64,000 bases of DNA from Sandaracinus amylolyticus. GTDB lineage: Bacteria > Myxococcota_A > Polyangia > Polyangiales > Sandaracinaceae. The stretch spans positions 8,184,001 to 8,248,000 of the forward strand of contig NZ_CP011125.1 of NCBI RefSeq assembly GCF_000737325.1, in the 5' to 3' direction. This document shows, piece by piece, positions 23,381 to 31,512 of the stretch (the stretch's first letter is position 1; the number at the start of each line of letters is the position of its first letter). The notes under the pieces are model-generated. The model searched no databases, had not been told where the DNA came from, and saw only the letters and a list, made by a program, of their open reading frames with translations. The position numbers and the translations under genes were made by a program.

Positions 23381-26161
23381 CTACATCGCGCCGCAGCGCG
23401 CCTGGAACGCCTCGAACGACTCGTCGGGCCGCGGGAGATCGCAGTCGGGCGGGGTCGCGCCTTCGGCCGGCGCCGCGCCCTCGCCTTCCGCCGGCGCGGC
23501 TGCGCCTTCCGCCGCGTTGCAGCGCGCCTCGAACTCCTCGAACGACTCGTTCTCGCGCGGCAGATCGCAGTCCGCCTGCTCGGCCGGCGCGCCCTCGCCG
23601 CCTGCGCCCGCGCCCGAGCAGCGCGCGTCGAAATCTTCGAACGACTCGCCCTCGCGCGGGACCTCGCAGTCCTCTCCGCCGCCCGCCGGCGCTTCGCCGC
23701 CCGCAGGCTCGCCGCCGCCGCCGCCGTCGTCGGTCGTCGGCGCGACCTCGGGCGTCGCCGGGTGCATCTCGGCTTCCTCGCCGAGCATCGCGAGCGAGAG
23801 CGACGGCACGTACGTCGTGATCATCAGCGCCGCCGCGAACACGCCGATGAAGGGCAGCACGACCGGATAGAGATCCGGCACCGGACGCCCGAACCGGAAG
23901 CCCGCGATGAACAGGTTCAGGCCCATCGGCGGCATCAGGTAGCCGATCTCGAGATTGATCAGGAACACGATGCCGAGGTGGTACGGGTTGATCCCGAAGT
24001 GCATCGCGATGCCCATGATCAACGGCACGATCACGACGATCGCCGAGAAGATGTCCATCAGCATGCCGACGATCAGCAGGAACACGTTCAGCGCGATCAG
24101 GAACGTGAGCGGCGAGTCGATCAGACCGCCCGCGCTCTGGCCCTGACGCGCGAGCGCGTCGACCGCCTCGCGGCACTGGAACATCACGTCGCTGTGCTCG
24201 GCGAGGTACGCCTGCGCCGGCTCACCGCACGTCAGCGCCTCGAAGAGCGCGTCCGCGGTCTGCGCCTGCACGAAGTAGAACGTCAGGACCGTCGCCGCGC
24301 AGAGCTTCACGAAGATGGCGCCGACGAGCACCATCGAGTCCGGGATGATCCGCGGGATGTCCTTGCCGAGCGAGAGGTCCTTGTAGACGAAGACCTCGAT
24401 GACGAAGACGTAGAACGCGGTGAACGCCGCCGCGCCGAGCGGGCCCGCCGCGACCAGGCCGACGATCACGACGATCGGCAGCGCGAGCTCCCACTTCGCC
24501 TCCCAGAGGGCGGCGCCCGCTTCCTTCGCGTCGAAGCTCGAGCGCGGCACCTTGCGGATGACGCCGACCACCATCGAGTAGGCCATCATCAGGACCAGCA
24601 CGAGCACGCCCGGGAGGATGCCCGCGAGGATCATCTTGTTGAGCTGGACGCGCTCGACGCCCGGCGGCATCTCCTGCAGGCCCGCGACGATGCCGTAGAC
24701 GAGCAGCGGCAAGCACGGGAAGAACGTGATGCCGAGCGCGCCGCCGCTCGTCACGAGACCGAGCGAGAACTTCTCGGGGTAGCGGTCCTTGAGCAGCGCG
24801 GGGAAGAGCAGGCCGCCGATCGCGACGATCGTGATGCCGCTCGCGCCGCTGAACACGGTGAAGCCCGCGCTCGCGAGCACGCACACCACCGCGAGGCCGC
24901 CGGGCAGCGAGCCGAGGAGCGCGCGCGCCACGCGCACGAGGCGCTGCGGCGTCTTGCTCTCGCTCATCAGGTAGCCGGCGACAGTGAAGATCGGGATCGT
25001 CGGCAGGACGCTCATGCGCGCGAAGTGGTTGCCGAGCACGTCCTCGACGGCGTTCGCGAGCGGCGTGACCGGCACGGTCTCCGAGCCGTGGAGCCAGAGG
25101 AAGAGCGCGAGGCCGCCGAGGAACGTGAAGAGCGGCGCGCCCATCAGCGCGACCACCGCGAAGAACGCGACACCCATCGTGATCGAGACGTTCTCGATGT
25201 TGAGGATGCCGAAGTACGACAGGGCGAGCGTCGCGAGCACGCCCGCGGCCGCGACCAGCGGCGGCACCGGACCGTCGATCGTCGCGTACTCCTCGGGCAG
25301 CGGCGCGGTCGCCTTCGCCGAGCCGGTCTTGCGCACCCGCAGCGCGAGCGGGATGCCGAGCATCGCGGCCGACGCGAGCGATCCGAGGAGCACGGGCACG
25401 AACGTCGAGGTGCCGAGCGAGAGCACGATCGGGACGAGGAGGATCGCGATCGCGATCCCGATCTCGATCGGGCCCGCCTGCGCGATCGGCGACACGCGCA
25501 GCGGATCGCCCGCTTCACTCGGCGTTCCGTCGGGCTCTTCGTGGGGGACGCTCTCGTCCGCCGCGGGCGCGGGCGGCACCGGCTGGCTCGGCGCGACCTT
25601 GCCGCTCGCCGCCGCGAGGAGCTCGTGGAAGCCGTGCAGCAGCAGGCGGATCGCGATGAGCGCGAAGCCCGCCGGGATCATGAACTGGAACTCGTAGCTG
25701 CGGTCGACCGCCGCATCGAGGATGCCGCTCGACGCGAAGCTGCGGACCTGCTCGTCGGTCGTGTGGGCCTGCTCGACGAGCGACTCGTACACGCCGAGCC
25801 CGAGGCCGAACGCGACGACCGCACCGAACGTGCTCGCGATCGCGACGACCACGCGGCGCGCGCGATCGGGCAGCAGTCGACCGAGCGCGTCGATCGCGAG
25901 GTGCTTGCGCCCGCGCGTCGCGAAGCTCGCGCCGAGGAACGCGGCCCACACCGTGCCGTGCATCAGCACGTCGCCCGCGGCGCGGAGGATCGGGTGCTGG
26001 ATCCCGAAGATGCTACCGATGGCGCTCGCGACGCCGAGCGTGACCATCACGAGGACGATCACGACCGATAGCGAGCTCTCGGCGAGCAGGATGCCGCGAT
26101 CGATGAGGTCGAGCGGCTTGAGGAACGGAGCGGGCTTCGCGGAAGGGGCGGCACCGGCCAT
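23381..26161 (-). CDS. TRAP transporter fused DctQ-DctM membrane subunit with Cys-repeat tail
   Basis: 926 residues. Residues about 15-185 are the small DctQ-type four-helix subunit (WAAFLGASFATRGRKHLAID). A short Pro/Glu linker follows, then the large DctM subunit (about 225-800, twelve or so helices, with SGASGITIVAIGGLLFPALL and PPMGLNLFIAGFRFGRP). DctQM fusions are known. The unusual part is the last 100 residues: a Gly/Ala/Pro/Glu low-complexity tail with three 18-residue Cys-bounded repeats. The protein imports a carboxylate-type or other small solute using a sodium or proton gradient and the periplasmic DctP protein. The dctP and tatT genes lie 3 kb away on the same strand. Confidence 0.9.
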   Translation of the reverse strand: MAGAAPSAKPAPFLKPLDLIDRGILLAESSLSVVIVLVMVTLGVASAIGSIFGIQHPILRAAGDVLMHGTVWAAFLGASFATRGRKHLAIDALGRLLPDRARRVVVAIASTFGAVVAFGLGLGVYESLVEQAHTTDEQVRSFASSGILDAAVDRSYEFQFMIPAGFALIAIRLLLHGFHELLAAASGKVAPSQPVPPAPAADESVPHEEPDGTPSEAGDPLRVSPIAQAGPIEIGIAIAILLVPIVLSLGTSTFVPVLLGSLASAAMLGIPLALRVRKTGSAKATAPLPEEYATIDGPVPPLVAAAGVLATLALSYFGILNIENVSITMGVAFFAVVALMGAPLFTFLGGLALFLWLHGSETVPVTPLANAVEDVLGNHFARMSVLPTIPIFTVAGYLMSESKTPQRLVRVARALLGSLPGGLAVVCVLASAGFTVFSGASGITIVAIGGLLFPALLKDRYPEKFSLGLVTSGGALGITFFPCLPLLVYGIVAGLQEMPPGVERVQLNKMILAGILPGVLVLVLMMAYSMVVGVIRKVPRSSFDAKEAGAALWEAKWELALPIVVIVGLVAAGPLGAAAFTAFYVFVIEVFVYKDLSLGKDIPRIIPDSMVLVGAIFVKLCAATVLTFYFVQAQTADALFEALTCGEPAQAYLAEHSDVMFQCREAVDALARQGQSAGGLIDSPLTFLIALNVFLLIVGMLMDIFSAIVVIVPLIMGIAMHFGINPYHLGIVFLINLEIGYLMPPMGLNLFIAGFRFGRPVPDLYPVVLPFIGVFAAALMITTYVPSLSLAMLGEEAEMHPATPEVAPTTDDGGGGGEPAGGEAPAGGGEDCEVPREGESFEDFDARCSGAGAGGEGAPAEQADCDLPRENESFEEFEARCNAAEGAAAPAEGEGAAPAEGATPPDCDLPRPDESFEAFQARCGAM
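23393..23671 (-). repeat. Three-copy Cys-bounded motif in the TRAP permease tail
   Basis: Copies at residues 831-848 (23618-23671), 864-881 (23519-23572) and 906-923 (23393-23446). Consensus DC[ED][VL]PR-x2-ESFE-x-F-x-ARC, with Cys at positions 2 and 18 of each copy; one copy reads DESF in place of the xESF form. The spacers are low-complexity Gly/Ala/Glu/Pro, unrelated to each other in length (15 and 24 residues). The last copy ends three residues before the C-terminus. Confidence 0.9.
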
Positions 26162-26314
26162 CGCGGGGGGGATCCTCTCGGTCGCAGAGCAGGTAGGACG
26201 CGCACTCCGGGCCGTGGGCAGCCCCGAGGGCGGGGCGAATCTACCGGGATCCCCTCGGTCAGGGAAGCGTGATGAAACGCAGAAGTTGCAGTTCGTTCAT
26301 GTCCCCGTATCAGG

Positions 26315-26350
26315 ACGCGCCTGCCCGCTGACGCGCGCGGGCAGGCGCGT
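26315..26350. terminator. Strong hairpin after the ABM gene
   Basis: A perfect 14-bp stem, ACGCGCCTGCCCGC pairing with GCGGGCAGGCGCGT, with an 8-nt loop. It lies 6 nt beyond the stop of the ABM-domain gene on the minus strand and is followed on the plus strand by TTTCG. It probably ends the ABM transcript upstream of dctQM. Confidence 0.6.
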
Positions 26351-26356
26351 TTCGTA

Positions 26357-26656
26357 TCAGCCGAGCTTCGCGGCCAGCACGTCGTGCTTCTCGATCACCG
26401 GGGGCGCGGCGAGGAGGCGCGGTGCCTGCGCCATCAGCGCCTCCGCGATCCGCCCCGCGAGGTGGGCCTCGCGGCCGCGCTCGTCCGCGAACACGTCGAA
26501 GATCGCGAACGTCGTCGGGCCGAGCTTCACCGCGAACCACGCCACCGTGCCCGGCTCCTGCTGCGCGAGCGGGAGCGCGCCCTTCACGAACGCCTCGAGC
26601 TCCTCCGCCTTCCCCGCCGCCGCCTCGAGACGCACCCACAGACCGAGCTTCACCAT
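26357..26656 (-). CDS. Antibiotic biosynthesis monooxygenase (ABM)-domain protein
   Basis: 99 residues, full length for the ABM ferredoxin-like dimeric fold. It starts MVKLGLWVRLEAAAGKAEELE; the strand pattern GTVAWFAVKLGPTTFAIFDVFADE followed by the helix REAHLAGRIAEALM is typical. Start supported by a GGAGGTGA Shine-Dalgarno (6-7 nt upstream). Family members are heme-degrading enzymes, small quinone-forming monooxygenases, or unassigned; no specific reaction can be given. Divergent from the AraC/GlxA regulator gene, which may control it. Confidence 0.82.
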   Translation of the reverse strand: MVKLGLWVRLEAAAGKAEELEAFVKGALPLAQQEPGTVAWFAVKLGPTTFAIFDVFADERGREAHLAGRIAEALMAQAPRLLAAPPVIEKHDVLAAKLG

Positions 26657-26721
26657 CGAATCACCTCCGGACGAGCACGCGCCATGTCGCGTGTGGCCAG
26701 CACGTTGGCTTCGCCGCGCCG

Positions 26722-26740
26722 ATCTCGGTATTGGCGAGAT
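26722..26740. promoter_or_regulatory. Candidate operator between ABM and GlxA-type regulator
   Basis: ATCTCG (26722-26727) and CGAGAT (26735-26740) form a 6-bp inverted repeat with a 7-nt AT-rich spacer, in the 111-bp divergent region. It is a plausible site for the adjacent AraC-type regulator or another dimer. Seen as symmetry only. Confidence 0.4.
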
Positions 26741-26767
26741 GGACAACGTTGATATCGTTCCCGCCAG

Positions 26768-27724
26768 ATGCAGATCGCCGTCCTCGCGCTGGAGGGAGCC
26801 TTCGACGTCGGGCTCGCGTCGCTCCTCGACACGCTGAGCATCGCGTCCGATCTGTCGCGCGCGCGCGGCGCGGACGGGCCGCGCTTCGACGCGCGCATCG
26901 TCGGGGTGCGCCGTCGCGTGACGACGCATCAGGGCCTGCGCGTCCCGGTGTCGTCGCCGCCGCGCTCGGCGCCCGACGTGGTGGTCGTGCCCGGGCTCGG
27001 ATGCACCGTGCCCGATGCGCTGCGCGAGCGGCTCGAGCGTCGCGACGTCGCGGATGCGGCCGCGCTGATCCGGCGGTGGAGCGAGCAGGGGACGCGCGTG
27101 TCCGCGGCGTGCACCGGCACGTTCGTGCTCGCGCGCAGCGGGCTGCTCGACGGGCAGCGCGCGACCACGACGTGGTGGATGGCGCCGCTCTTCCGCGAGC
27201 TCTTTCCGCGCGTGGAGCTCGACGAGTCGCAGATGGTCGTCGACTCGCGCGGGCGCGTGACCGCGGGCGCCGCGTTCGCGCACGTCGACCTCGCGCTGTG
27301 GTGGATCCGCAGGAAGAGCCCGACGCTCGCCGCGCAGGCCGCGCGTCATCTGGTGGTCGACGCGCGGCCCTCGCAGGCGCCCTTCGTGATCCCCGATCAG
27401 CTCACGCACGAAGATCCGCTGGTCGAGCGCTTCGAAGGGTGGGCGCGACGTCGCCTCGCGGATCGCTTCTCGCTCGCCGCGGCGGCGCGCGCGGCGGGGA
27501 CGAGCGAGCGCACGCTCTCGCGGCGGGTTCGCACGGTGCTGGGCCGGACGCCGCTCGGCTACGTGCAGGACCTGCGCATCGAGCGCGCGGTGCACCTGCT
27601 CAAGACGACCTCGCAGGACGTCGAGGCGATCGCGCGCGCCGTCGGGTACGGCGACGGAGTGACGCTGCGGACGCTGCTACGACGAAAGCTCGGCCGCGGG
27701 GTGCGCGAGCTGCGCGCGCGCTGA
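26768..27724 (+). CDS. GlxA-family AraC-type transcriptional regulator
   Basis: 318 residues. Residues about 1-190 are a DJ-1/PfpI-like amidase fold (IAVLALEGAFDVGLASLLDTL, DVVVVPGLGC, and VSAACTGTFVLARSGLLDG, where the Cys occupies the nucleophile-elbow position). Residues about 215-318 hold two helix-turn-helix motifs of the AraC type (LAAAARAAGTSERTLSRRV and VEAIARAVGYGDGVTLRTLLRR). GlxA-type regulators respond to small ligands and often act on neighbouring genes. The divergent ABM gene is the most likely target. The convergent LysR gene ends 3 nt away. Confidence 0.9.
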   Translation: MQIAVLALEGAFDVGLASLLDTLSIASDLSRARGADGPRFDARIVGVRRRVTTHQGLRVPVSSPPRSAPDVVVVPGLGCTVPDALRERLERRDVADAAALIRRWSEQGTRVSAACTGTFVLARSGLLDGQRATTTWWMAPLFRELFPRVELDESQMVVDSRGRVTAGAAFAHVDLALWWIRRKSPTLAAQAARHLVVDARPSQAPFVIPDQLTHEDPLVERFEGWARRRLADRFSLAAAARAAGTSERTLSRRVRTVLGRTPLGYVQDLRIERAVHLLKTTSQDVEAIARAVGYGDGVTLRTLLRRKLGRGVRELRAR

Positions 27725-27727
27725 GCC

Positions 27728-28588
27728 TCAGCACGCGTCGAGGAACGCCTGCGCCCGCGCCGATCGATCAGGGCGCGACACCACGCCGATCCGCAGCCGC
27801 ACGCCGACGCCCGCGACCGGCCGCATCACCACGCCGCGTCGCTCGAGCACACGCATGCTGCTCGACACCACCGACACGCCGACGCCCGCGGCGACGAGCC
27901 CGAGCATCGCGATCTTCGTGTCGGTCTCCTGCACGACGTCGCCGCCGACGCCGTGCTTCGCGAGCGCGCGCGCCACCGCGCCGGCCCACGCGGGCTCGAC
28001 GTCGGGGCGCACGATCACGAACGGCTCGCCCTTCAGCTCGCTCACGTCGACGCGCGTCTTCTTCGCGAGGCGATGCCGCGACGGGAGCGCCGCGACGAGC
28101 GACTCGGTCGCGAGCACGCGCGTCTCGAGATCACCTTCGAGCGGCAGGCACGCGATCCCGAGCTCGACGCGCCCTTCGTCGATCGCCGCGACCTGATCGG
28201 GGCTGCGCATCTCACGCAGCTCGAGCGCGATGTCGGGATGCGCGCGCCGGAACGCAGCGATGACGCGCGGCAGGATCTCGTAGGTCGCGGTCGGGGTGTA
28301 CGCGACCGAGAGCACGCCCGCTTCGCCGCGCGCGACGCGCCTCGCTTCGTCGGTCGCGCGTGCGCTCTCGGCGACGAGGTGCCGCGCACGGCCGAGCAGC
28401 GCCTTACCCGCCTCGGTGAGCGCGACGTTCCGCGAGTCGCGCTCGAAGAGCCGCACCTCGAGCTCGTCCTCGAGCTTGCGGATCGCGATGCTGAGCGGCG
28501 GCTGCGAGACGTGCAGGCGACGCGCGGCGCGACCGAAGTGGAGCTCCTCGGCGAGCACCACGAACGCATGGAGGCGACGGATATCCAT
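27728..28588 (-). CDS. LysR-family transcriptional regulator
   Basis: 286 residues. N-terminal winged helix (MDIRRLHAFVVLAEELHFGRAARRLHVSQPPLS, with a normal recognition helix), a linker helix (about 60-90), and a substrate-binding-like effector domain (about 92-286, with LSVAYTPTATYEILPRVI and GLVAAGVGVSVVSSSM). It resembles the BenM/CatM-like subgroup in the HFGRAARRLHVSQPPLS motif, which controls aromatic or other catabolic genes, but the effector is unknown. Divergent from the SnoaL-like gene, with a perfect dyad in the shared upstream region. Confidence 0.93.
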   Translation of the reverse strand: MDIRRLHAFVVLAEELHFGRAARRLHVSQPPLSIAIRKLEDELEVRLFERDSRNVALTEAGKALLGRARHLVAESARATDEARRVARGEAGVLSVAYTPTATYEILPRVIAAFRRAHPDIALELREMRSPDQVAAIDEGRVELGIACLPLEGDLETRVLATESLVAALPSRHRLAKKTRVDVSELKGEPFVIVRPDVEPAWAGAVARALAKHGVGGDVVQETDTKIAMLGLVAAGVGVSVVSSSMRVLERRGVVMRPVAGVGVRLRIGVVSRPDRSARAQAFLDAC

Positions 28589-28598
28589 CGGCGGGAAT

Positions 28599-28615
28599 GA
28601 TATCGAATCGATATC
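28599..28615. promoter_or_regulatory. Perfect dyad, candidate LysR operator
   Basis: GATATCGA and TCGATATC form a perfect 8-bp inverted repeat around a single A. It contains a T-N11-A pattern, as LysR-type sites do. It lies 11 nt before the LysR start and about 57 nt before the SnoaL-like start. Confidence 0.6.
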
Positions 28616-28671
28616 GATCGCTCCCGAAACGATCTTGGACCTCGCGCGCGCTCGCTCGCAGCTTGGCGTCC

Positions 28672-29079
28672 ATGACCAAGACCGACGTCATCCGCCGCTA
28701 CTACGACGAGCTCTTCAACGCGGGGCGCACCGAGCTGGTGCACGAGCTGCTCGCCGAGGACTACGTGAACCACTCGACCGGCTCACCCGATCAGCCGCGT
28801 GATCGCGAGGGGGTCGCGCAGGTCGTGCGCGCGCTGCGCGTCGCGTTCCCGGATCTGCGCTACACGATCGACGATCTCGTCGCGTCGGACGACGCCGTCG
28901 TGGCGCGCACCACGATGACCGGGACACATCGCGGCGACTTCTTCGGCATCGCGGCCACCGGACGCGCGATCCGCGTCTCGCAGATCACGATCGAGCGCTT
29001 CCGCGGCGAGCGCATCGTCGCGCACTGGCGCCTGACCGACGAGCTCGCGCTGATGCGTCAGCTCGGTGTGATCGCCTGA
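28672..29079 (+). CDS. SnoaL-like polyketide cyclase-family protein (ester cyclase-like)
   Basis: 135 residues, a typical length for the SnoaL/nuclear transport factor 2-like fold. Helix DVIRRYYDELFNAGRTELVHELLAEDYVNH then YTIDDLVASDDAVVARTTMTGTHRGDFFGI match the family. Most bacterial members near LysR genes are of unknown function; in polyketide pathways the fold catalyses ring closure. The divergent LysR gene probably regulates it. The ATG is at 28672; no clear Shine-Dalgarno is visible. Confidence 0.8.
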   Translation: MTKTDVIRRYYDELFNAGRTELVHELLAEDYVNHSTGSPDQPRDREGVAQVVRALRVAFPDLRYTIDDLVASDDAVVARTTMTGTHRGDFFGIAATGRAIRVSQITIERFRGERIVAHWRLTDELALMRQLGVIA

Positions 29080-29085
29080 AAGGAA

Positions 29086-29119
29086 AACGCCGGGCCTCGC
29101 TCGTGCGAGGTCCGGCGTT
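29086..29119. terminator. Bidirectional terminator between SnoaL-like gene and dctP
   Basis: AACGCCGG-CCTCG pairs with CGAGG-CCGGCGTT as a 13-14-bp stem with one mismatch and a 6-nt loop. It is followed by CTTCG on the plus strand and preceded by AGGAAA (TTTCCT on the minus strand). It sits between the convergent stops at 29079 and 29140. Confidence 0.75.
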
Positions 29120-29139
29120 CTTCGTGGGTGCGCTGCGGA

Positions 29140-30159
29140 TCAGCGACCGAAAGCGGCCACGCGATCCACGAGCGCCTGGTCGGCGATCTGGCCCACGAGG
29201 CGGGTGCGGATCTGCGCGCCCGCGTTGAGCCACTCCTGCTGCTGCGCCTGCGTCACCTCGATGACCGTCGCGCCGCGCGAGCGGATCTCGGTGAGCGCCT
29301 GCTGCTCGTCGCGGCGCAGGTTGCGGCGCGCGAGCTGGTGGAACTGCGTCGCGGTCTCGCTGAGGATCGTCTGCTGATCCGGCGTGAGCTCCGCCCACTG
29401 GCGTCCACCGATGACCGTGCCGCCGAGGACGATCGTCATCGGCATGTCGGTCATGTGCGTGAGGCGCGAGCACCACTGCAGCGCGACGCACGGGACCGGC
29501 GGCGTGATCGCGGTGTCGACGCGGCCCGTCTGGATCGCACCGAGCACCTCCGGCACCTGGAGCGGCACCGGGTTGCTGCGCACGACCTGGTAGAAGGTCG
29601 GGAGCACGAGGTCGTCACGCCAGACCCACGGATGACGCGTCGCCATGTCCGCGGGCACGCGCACCGGCGCCGTCGAGAAGACGCGCGACTGACCGACGTC
29701 GGCCCAGCCCAGCATCTTGAAGCCCGCGCTGGTGAAGCCCGCGTCCATGTCGGGCGCGAGCGCCTCGCGGGCGCGGTCGAGCTGCTCGTAGTTGCGCAGG
29801 ATGCCGGGCATCTGGAACACGAGCGCCGGACGATGGATCTGCGCGAGACCGACCGCGGTCACCGACGCCGCGTCGAGGCGGCCCGAGCGGATCTTGCGGA
29901 TGACCTCGGCCTCGTCGCCCTGCACGCCGCCGCCGTAGATGCGGAACTGCAGGCCGCGCTCGCTGCGGCGCCGCAGCTCGCGGTTCCACGCGTCGAACAC
30001 GCGCATCCAGGTCGAGCCCGGGGGCGCGAGCGTGGCGAGCGAGATCGTGCGCGTCGTCGCCGCGGCCTCGGCCTCTTGCGCGCTCATCGGGCTCGCGTCG
30101 ATCGCGAAGAGCGCGAACGCCGCGAGCAGGATGAGCGCGAGCTTCTGATGGATCTTCAT
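29140..30159 (-). CDS. TRAP transporter periplasmic solute-binding protein DctP
   Basis: 339 residues. Signal peptide about 1-28 (LALILLAAFALFAIDASPMSAQ). The family pattern is clear: ISLATLAPPGSTWMRVFDAWN, then VIRKIRSGRLDAASVTAVGLAQIHRP, the Arg-containing FTSAGFKMLGWAD, and LTPDQQTILSETATQ. It binds the transported solute in the periplasm and docks on the DctQM membrane part. It is co-oriented with the tatT-like gene (15-bp gap) and 3 kb from dctQM. Lacks any extra domain. Substrate unknown. Confidence 0.9.
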   Translation of the reverse strand: MKIHQKLALILLAAFALFAIDASPMSAQEAEAAATTRTISLATLAPPGSTWMRVFDAWNRELRRRSERGLQFRIYGGGVQGDEAEVIRKIRSGRLDAASVTAVGLAQIHRPALVFQMPGILRNYEQLDRAREALAPDMDAGFTSAGFKMLGWADVGQSRVFSTAPVRVPADMATRHPWVWRDDLVLPTFYQVVRSNPVPLQVPEVLGAIQTGRVDTAITPPVPCVALQWCSRLTHMTDMPMTIVLGGTVIGGRQWAELTPDQQTILSETATQFHQLARRNLRRDEQQALTEIRSRGATVIEVTQAQQQEWLNAGAQIRTRLVGQIADQALVDRVAAFGR

Positions 30160-30174: not shown

Positions 30175-31242
30175 TCAGGTGGAAGAAGGAGACGCAGCGC
30201 CGTCGACGGACGCGCTCGGCTCCGAAGCCTCGCCCTCCGCTTCGCCCTCATCTTCGATCGGCGGGGGCACGAGGTCGTCGATCTGCGCGAGCAGACGACG
30301 GGCGCGGCGCTGCGCGAGCAGGTTCGGGATTCGCTGGTCGGGGAACGAGTCGACGTCGAACGCGACCACTTCGTTCAACATCGACTCGAAGAGCGCGCGA
30401 TCCTGGAGCGGGATCGCGACGAGCTGCGCCATCGTCACGAGGTAGAGCAGGTTCTTGCGCTCGGTGAGCTCGATCGCGCGCTCGAGCTCGACGCGCGCGT
30501 CCTGCGGGCGACCACCGAGCTGCGGGGGCGCCGCCGCCATGAGGCCGGCGCGCAGCGCGATCGGGCCGTAGTCCATGTACGTCTGGTCGAGCTCGTACGC
30601 GCGCTCGGCGAGCGCCGTCACGTACGCGAGATCCGCGATCGCGCCCATGTCGTCGCGGTGCAGGCTGATCCAGCGCACCCAGTTGTACGCGGCCCAGAAG
30701 AGCAGCGGCGCGTGGTTCTCGCGGCTGTCGAAGCGGTTGACGTGCGCGGTGAACGCCTCGAGGCCCTGGCTCTGCACTGCGAGCAGACCGCCGCCCTCGG
30801 GGCGCGCCATGTCGAGCCCGCCGATCGCGACCTCGCGACCGCGCAGGTACGCCTGCGACGCGCGCTCGCGGAGGTGCTCGATCTGCTCTTCCGTCGCGTC
30901 GTCGCTGAGCTGCGCGACCTCGTAGTCGTCCTCGATGAACCCGTACCCGAAGCTCGCGTAGCTCCGGCCGAGCATCGCGCGGAGCACGTTGTCGTCGGGC
31001 TTGATCTCGAGCAGGCCCTCCATCTGCTGGATCGACGCGGGGAACGCGATCTCGAGGATCTCGGGGTCGCGCATGCGCTGCACGCCCGGCGACGCGCGGC
31101 GCATCACGCCGATCGTCGTGTTCGCCGCGAACACTCCCGTGTCGCATCCGAAGAGAGGAAGGCTCGCGGGCACCGCGACCAGCGCGATGACGATCCCGAG
31201 CGAGCGAGCGAGGCGCGGTTGAGAAGAGCTGCGTTGGTTCAT
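30175..31242 (-). CDS. TatT-like TPR lipoprotein of TRAP transporter
   Basis: 355 residues from an ATG at 31242 that gives a lipoprotein signal peptide (lipobox LFGC, Cys about 32). The mature protein is helical with a TRAP-transporter T-component layout: LEIAFPASIQQMEGLLEIKPDDNVLRAMLGRSYASFGYGFIE, VRWISLHRDDMGAIADLAYV and a long ELERAIELTERKNLL TPR stretch. TatT of Treponema forms trimeric complexes with the P protein at the periplasm. A Glu/Ala/Pro-rich tail (about 330-355) is disordered. The dctP gene follows at 15 bp. Confidence 0.82.
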   Translation of the reverse strand: MNQRSSSQPRLARSLGIVIALVAVPASLPLFGCDTGVFAANTTIGVMRRASPGVQRMRDPEILEIAFPASIQQMEGLLEIKPDDNVLRAMLGRSYASFGYGFIEDDYEVAQLSDDATEEQIEHLRERASQAYLRGREVAIGGLDMARPEGGGLLAVQSQGLEAFTAHVNRFDSRENHAPLLFWAAYNWVRWISLHRDDMGAIADLAYVTALAERAYELDQTYMDYGPIALRAGLMAAAPPQLGGRPQDARVELERAIELTERKNLLYLVTMAQLVAIPLQDRALFESMLNEVVAFDVDSFPDQRIPNLLAQRRARRLLAQIDDLVPPPIEDEGEAEGEASEPSASVDGAASPSST

Positions 31243-31512
31243 CGGGTCTCCGGTCGGTCTGCGAAGCTCTCCGTCCGGAACGAGGCGCCCCTCGCGCAGT
31301 GCGCGGCCGAGTGACTGCGATGCGTGCGATCGCATTCAATCGCCGAGCACGTACGTCCGAGACCCCCCGGGTCGGAGGCGCCCGAGGATGCACCTGATCG
31401 GGTGGGTGCTGCCAGGTGGTTTCGGTAGGTTCTCGTGACGCATCGCGTCAAGAGATTCCCGACCAAAGCCGCGGGAATGCAGCGTGGGTGCGGGGACTAC
31501 GTACCCGGACGG

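Follow-up and report, generated by a model that had tools for sequence, protein, structure and literature searches.

TRAP transport requires the binding protein DctP, though DctP is a molecule of its own, distinct from the permease. Among the described systems closest to the one analysed here is the TPAT of Treponema pallidum (TatT-TatP-TatQM), in which, as here, a TatT lipoprotein, a DctP and a fused DctQM with the DctM fold are encoded together. To our knowledge, the TPAT relay has been modelled and its permease end has not been observed. DctP here is soluble, whereas its T. pallidum counterpart, TatP, is a lipoprotein (PMC5812351). In addition, many myxobacterial DctMs bear a long tail of repeated units in the periplasm, of which we found no description in the TPAT literature searched. 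The SiaQM and IseQM structures (8thj, 7qha and 9pym) share the whole membrane fold with our permease, but their chains stop where the DctQM tail starts. Natural M-P fusion TRAP transporters exist, e.g., G4Q5D7 of Acidaminococcus intestini (PMC9352664), and likewise have an extra periplasmic part on the M subunit; in these a whole binding protein is covalently attached, whereas DctQM here bears small repeated units. Dockerin and EF-hand repeats likewise form tandem arrays of small units at a flexible C-terminal end, but the units described below differ from them in sequence, and the DxNxDG calcium loop is absent from all three units in the window.

The window, i.e., the whole stretch of 64,000 nucleotides of the Sandaracinus amylolyticus genome that we analysed, encodes the following components of this system:

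23381..26161, minus strand: fused TRAP permease DctQM, 926 aa (Pfam DctQ 4.1e-11, DctM 2.8e-63; AlphaFold model compared with SiaQM/IseQM)
25634..25996, minus strand: DctQ part, residues 56-176 (Pfam PF04290)
23801..25168, minus strand: DctM part, residues 332-787 (Pfam PF06808)
29140..30159, minus strand: DctP, solute-binding protein; Sec-type signal present, lipobox absent (Pfam PF03480, 1.2e-29; N-terminus read by eye)
30175..31335, minus strand: TatT, TRAP T-component lipoprotein with the lipobox ...LFGC (Pfam PF16811, 8e-60; lipobox read by eye)

Both PF04290 and PF06808 score above their cut-offs in DctQM, and TatT (PF16811) and DctP lie beside the permease, upstream of it and on the same strand. 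Since TatT and DctP accompany DctQM, we assign the system to the TPAT type (TatT-DctP-DctQM). The gene order TatT-DctP-DctQM is kept as one cluster in relatives; DctP and DctQM are separated by about 3 kb in S. amylolyticus and by about 2.3 kb in a close relative (L073), and are nearly adjacent in most relatives. The intervening region of the window (26162-29139) holds other ORFs, some of which resemble AraC- or LysR-type regulators by eye. The whole genome contains three TatT matches and two full-length DctQM genes. Besides the pair in the window, TatT-DctP pairs are found at genome positions 575373-576155 and 5287900-5288481, with no DctM in the 15 kb examined. DctP is soluble and TatT is a lipoprotein in tailed and tailless systems alike, and we therefore rejected the idea that the tail substitutes for a lipid anchor on DctP.

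Modelled with AlphaFold (mean pLDDT 64, pTM 0.65), DctQM superposes on the SiaQM/IseQM structures with VIA Z scores of 24.3-32.1 over up to 586 residues, and on 8thi_A with a VIA Z of 29.4 and an rmsd of 4.1 over 585 residues, indicating a SiaQM-type fold. The chain ends of the SiaM and IseQM structures map to residues 793-797 of the model, at the start of the tail. The tail itself lies outside the aligned chains, and was not counted as evidence for a new fold. Its best 19-residue hydrophobic mean is 0.02, compared with 2.2 for the last helix, and it contains no hydrophobic segment. SiaM is reported to have an N-out/C-out topology (PMC9971032). Because SiaM is C-out, its chain and that of IseQM end at residues 793-797, and no further membrane segment follows the last helix, the tail is placed by homology on the periplasmic side, where the initial annotation had also put it; a cytoplasmic tail, named there as a counter-case, was rejected on the C-out topology together with the lack of a further membrane segment. 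The tail and its parts are as follows, together with a pair of cysteines in a DctM loop that is discussed below:

23384..23776, minus strand: tail of DctQM, periplasmic by homology, residues 796-926, 131 residues, acidic and mostly disordered (structure alignment, hydrophobicity, low linker pLDDT)
23618..23671, minus strand: unit 1, DCEVPREGESFEDFDARC, residues 831-848 (sequence, family model, AlphaFold helix)
23519..23572, minus strand: unit 2, DCDLPRENESFEEFEARC, residues 864-881 (sequence, family model, AlphaFold helix)
23393..23446, minus strand: unit 3, DCDLPRPDESFEAFQARC, residues 906-923 (sequence, family model, AlphaFold helix)
24173..24229, minus strand: loop cysteine pair C645/C663 of DctM (LTCG...CREAV), invariant in the alignment of permeases with a Cys-framed tail

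The three units follow the consensus DC[DE][VL]PRxxESFExFxARC and are identical in 12 of 18 columns, and the units of this genome and of its orthologues match the family model with E values of about 1e-8 to 1e-10 per genome. The initial annotation had described three Cys-bounded copies at 23393-23671; we confirmed the copies, and these coordinates are exact. It had also placed cysteines at positions 2 and 18 of each copy, and both are kept in all orthologue tails aligned. A search of the tail against the curated models of Pfam and NCBIfam returned nothing above cut-off, so that the second counter-case of the initial annotation, a repeat already described as a domain, finds no support. The best match, His_Phos_1 (14.6 bits, cut-off 21.7; E 0.027), was read as a common helix-start pattern rather than homology, and the idea that the tail is a known domain was rejected.

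Comparison with relatives shows that evolution protects the units while the linkers drift. The tails of 14 orthologues are 78-171 residues long and contain 1-3 units with two cysteines per unit and none elsewhere, and a further relative known from a partial sequence (G008) has four. In each of the 14 orthologues, 40-50 residues separate the first unit from the last membrane helix, and the later linkers vary more. Against three relatives, identity is 94, 70 and 70% in the units, 72, 38 and 38% in the tail linkers, and 92, 79 and 76% in the membrane core; relative to the closest of them, non-synonymous changes affect 3 of 54 unit codons versus 21 of 75 linker codons (Fisher p = 0.001). Among 31 copies of the unit from relatives, C2, P5, E9, R17 and C18 never vary, and D3 and F14 hardly do. 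Furthermore, position 8 is G, N and D/E in copies 1, 2 and 3, respectively, across the family of the window, each copy having its own signature by eye, and the retention of these signatures indicates that the triplication predates those species. These data bear on the possibility that the tail is a passive acidic spacer or a mucin-like extension with no specific partner. The low-complexity, drifting linkers would suit such a role, but the constraint on the units is about equal to that on the membrane core and five of their positions do not change at all, so we regard this explanation as very unlikely.

The tail-only AlphaFold model contains one helix per unit, at tail positions 46-59, 79-90 and 121-128. 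The best 10-residue blocks, with pLDDT of 78-87, fall in the units, and most linker blocks are at about 48-63; the pTM of 0.24 indicates that the units have no fixed mutual packing. The strict pairing of cysteines within units in the 14 tails, the C-out topology and the presence of a VKOR-type oxidase gene in the genome are all consistent with a disulfide within each unit. We infer that a C2-C18 bond would pin the CDxPR loop to an amphipathic, N-capped helix, ESFxxFxxR, and that the unit so closed would expose a small hydrophobic-acidic face.

Two further cysteine pairs accompany these tails. The C645/C663 pair of DctM is missing from the other TPAT DctMs checked, i.e., those lacking a Cys-framed tail; by homology its loop sits before HPout and is probably periplasmic. 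An additional pair, PPVPCxxLQWC, occurs in the DctP proteins of the window's family and of genome G014, and is absent from the other tail-bearing families. The loop pair and the DctP pair may be independent structural disulfides. In one rival reading of the tail, a unit would fold back onto the periplasmic face of DctQM, compete with DctP and thereby gate uptake. The presence of the loop pair in the very permeases with such tails and the constant spacer before the first unit would fit such autoregulation, but a copy number ranging from 1 to 4, linkers free to vary and the lack of packing between units in the tail-alone model argue against it, making it a poor candidate.

When 84,980 prokaryotic species were scanned for the exact pattern, the 20 stretches that matched all came from Myxococcota, and a family-model search of 377 genomes of the phylum and 317 of the class located the unit almost solely in these DctQM tails, matches elsewhere with E above about 0.005 being counted as chance. 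This restriction to Myxococcota, the E values of the family model and the deficit of non-synonymous changes relative to the linkers indicate that the units did not arise by chance. In S. amylolyticus itself no unit was found outside the DctQM gene at E 0.01. The initial annotation described the repeat as a feature of one permease tail, and proposed a check for fusion to other proteins; this check shows that it is not confined there, as the unit also occurs on a TatT, a Ser/Thr kinase and another membrane protein. The TatT of genome G014 bears a unit in its tail, as does the DctQM of the same genome; the unit-bearing TatTs of G014 and G085 are near-identical until the last tail residues, and were scored as one occurrence. 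The Ser/Thr kinase (PF00069; L070 814-2418, plus strand) carries CDAPRDDESFATFRARC just beyond an apparent membrane helix, and CDVPREKESSADFQRRC is found in a multi-span protein of 808 residues that has no Pfam family (L069 4194-6617, plus strand). The part of the latter C-terminal to the unit looks repeat-like. By eye, the copies on TatT, kinase and multi-span protein all read as extracytoplasmic, which fits a disulfide. The unit is a new periplasmic module of myxobacteria, small, portable and probably closed by a disulfide. One could imagine a general myxobacterial docking peptide of the periplasm whose partner lies outside the TRAP system, such as a scaffold, chaperone, protease or envelope component, as the kinase and the 808-residue protein might suggest. 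We consider this unlikely, since almost every copy sits on a TPAT DctQM or TatT, and the genome of S. amylolyticus has none beyond the DctQM gene.

Tails of other kinds are found on related permeases. Among 30 TatT-adjacent DctMs, 19 have a tail of about 40 residues or more (some of these delimited by eye within a longer stretch) and 11 have none, whereas none of the classical DctMs has one (0 of 9 surveyed, and 0 of 5 in a held-out set). Many of the tails on myxobacterial TPAT DctMs are acidic, periplasmic and marked by a [ST]-phi-x-x-phi motif, often in tandem, with short repeats such as ETLDDLE, ESLEDLE, LDLDALEE, TLEELMQQLE and SMEEMMKKAQ. The pattern [STDN][LMFY][DEQN][DEQNA][LMFY], which was chosen on 22 tails (16 of 22, versus 1.4 in shuffles), recurred in 13 of 25 held-out tails, versus 0.86 +/- 0.90 in 2000 shuffles (maximum 5), although the tails are not fully independent, as some of the genomes come from the same families. 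The resemblance between the Cys-framed unit and this wider motif may reflect convergence on a helix start, given the equally weak similarity of the tail to histidine phosphatases (E 0.027), and this is a point against the docking reading given below. The second DctQM of S. amylolyticus (about 10.007-10.011 Mb; L156 6361-10383, minus strand) ends in two tandem EF-hand/dockerin-like repeats, CxPPEDLNCDGNVT(I/M)(D/E)EMTRY, which show the DxNxDG loop but are below the Pfam cut-off. Another DctM tail (L142 1102-3276, minus strand) has a Cys-rich stretch of a different kind and, after it, three DDALMREMMGAG / DEDLFREMMGAG repeats. The Cys-framed, [ST]-phi-x-x-phi and EF-hand-like tails point to one site on the permease that carries different small tandem units depending on lineage.

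The association of tails with TatT raises the question of whether the units bind TatT itself, or the outer-membrane side through it, bridging the periplasm in a TatT-DctP-DctQM assembly. Proteins with a TPR fold often bind peptides. TatT is such a TPR protein (PMC5812351), tails are frequent on TatT-associated DctMs with none on classical ones, and a tail of about 140 residues is long enough to extend far into the periplasm. The C-terminus of many TatTs is a conserved -D[DE][LY]F, and a mimicry of this end by the tail units is suggestive only. But the unit-bearing TatT of G014 would then bind its own tail, and more than a third of the TatT-adjacent DctMs (11 of 30) have no tail; such an assembly seems improbable to us. 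The same 11 tailless permeases indicate that the tail is not essential to the system.

We tentatively favour, as a real possibility short of a firm expectation, a docking role for the tail, which would be flexible and multivalent and would keep a periplasmic partner, with DctP as the best guess, near the permease. The initial annotation had already suggested a possible tether for DctP or the TatT-like lipoprotein. Several weak docking sites along a flexible line would catch the soluble partner at the permease entrance, and ligand-loaded DctP arriving from TatT would be held close and rebind fast. The tail would thereby do without a covalent bond what the natural M-P fusions do by linking the binding protein to DctM. 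We prefer this reading because the tail combines a flexible line, conserved units in variable number and a constant first spacer, and because the transporter depends on a binding protein and has a known covalent counterpart. The frequency of [ST]-phi-x-x-phi tails on TPAT-type DctMs, and their absence from classical ones, speaks for it as well. DctP is the first candidate for the partner since it has to meet TatT as well as DctQM, which in G014 both carry the unit. Against DctP as the sole partner, the copies on the Ser/Thr kinase and on the unrelated membrane protein are left unexplained.

It is conceivable, though somewhat unlikely, that binding-protein-dependent secondary transporters of Myxococcota in general capture their binding protein by multivalent permease tails, and that lineages have swapped the unit (Cys-framed helix, acidic [ST]-phi-x-x-phi helix or EF-hand/dockerin-like repeat) while keeping the architecture, giving an exchangeable, non-covalent form of the rare M-P fusions. 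If the docking tail of DctQM is real, it would be a concrete and removable device by which a TRAP permease could locate and retain its soluble binding protein, and it would give a handle on the last transfer of the TPAT relay, which leads from TatT through DctP to the permease.
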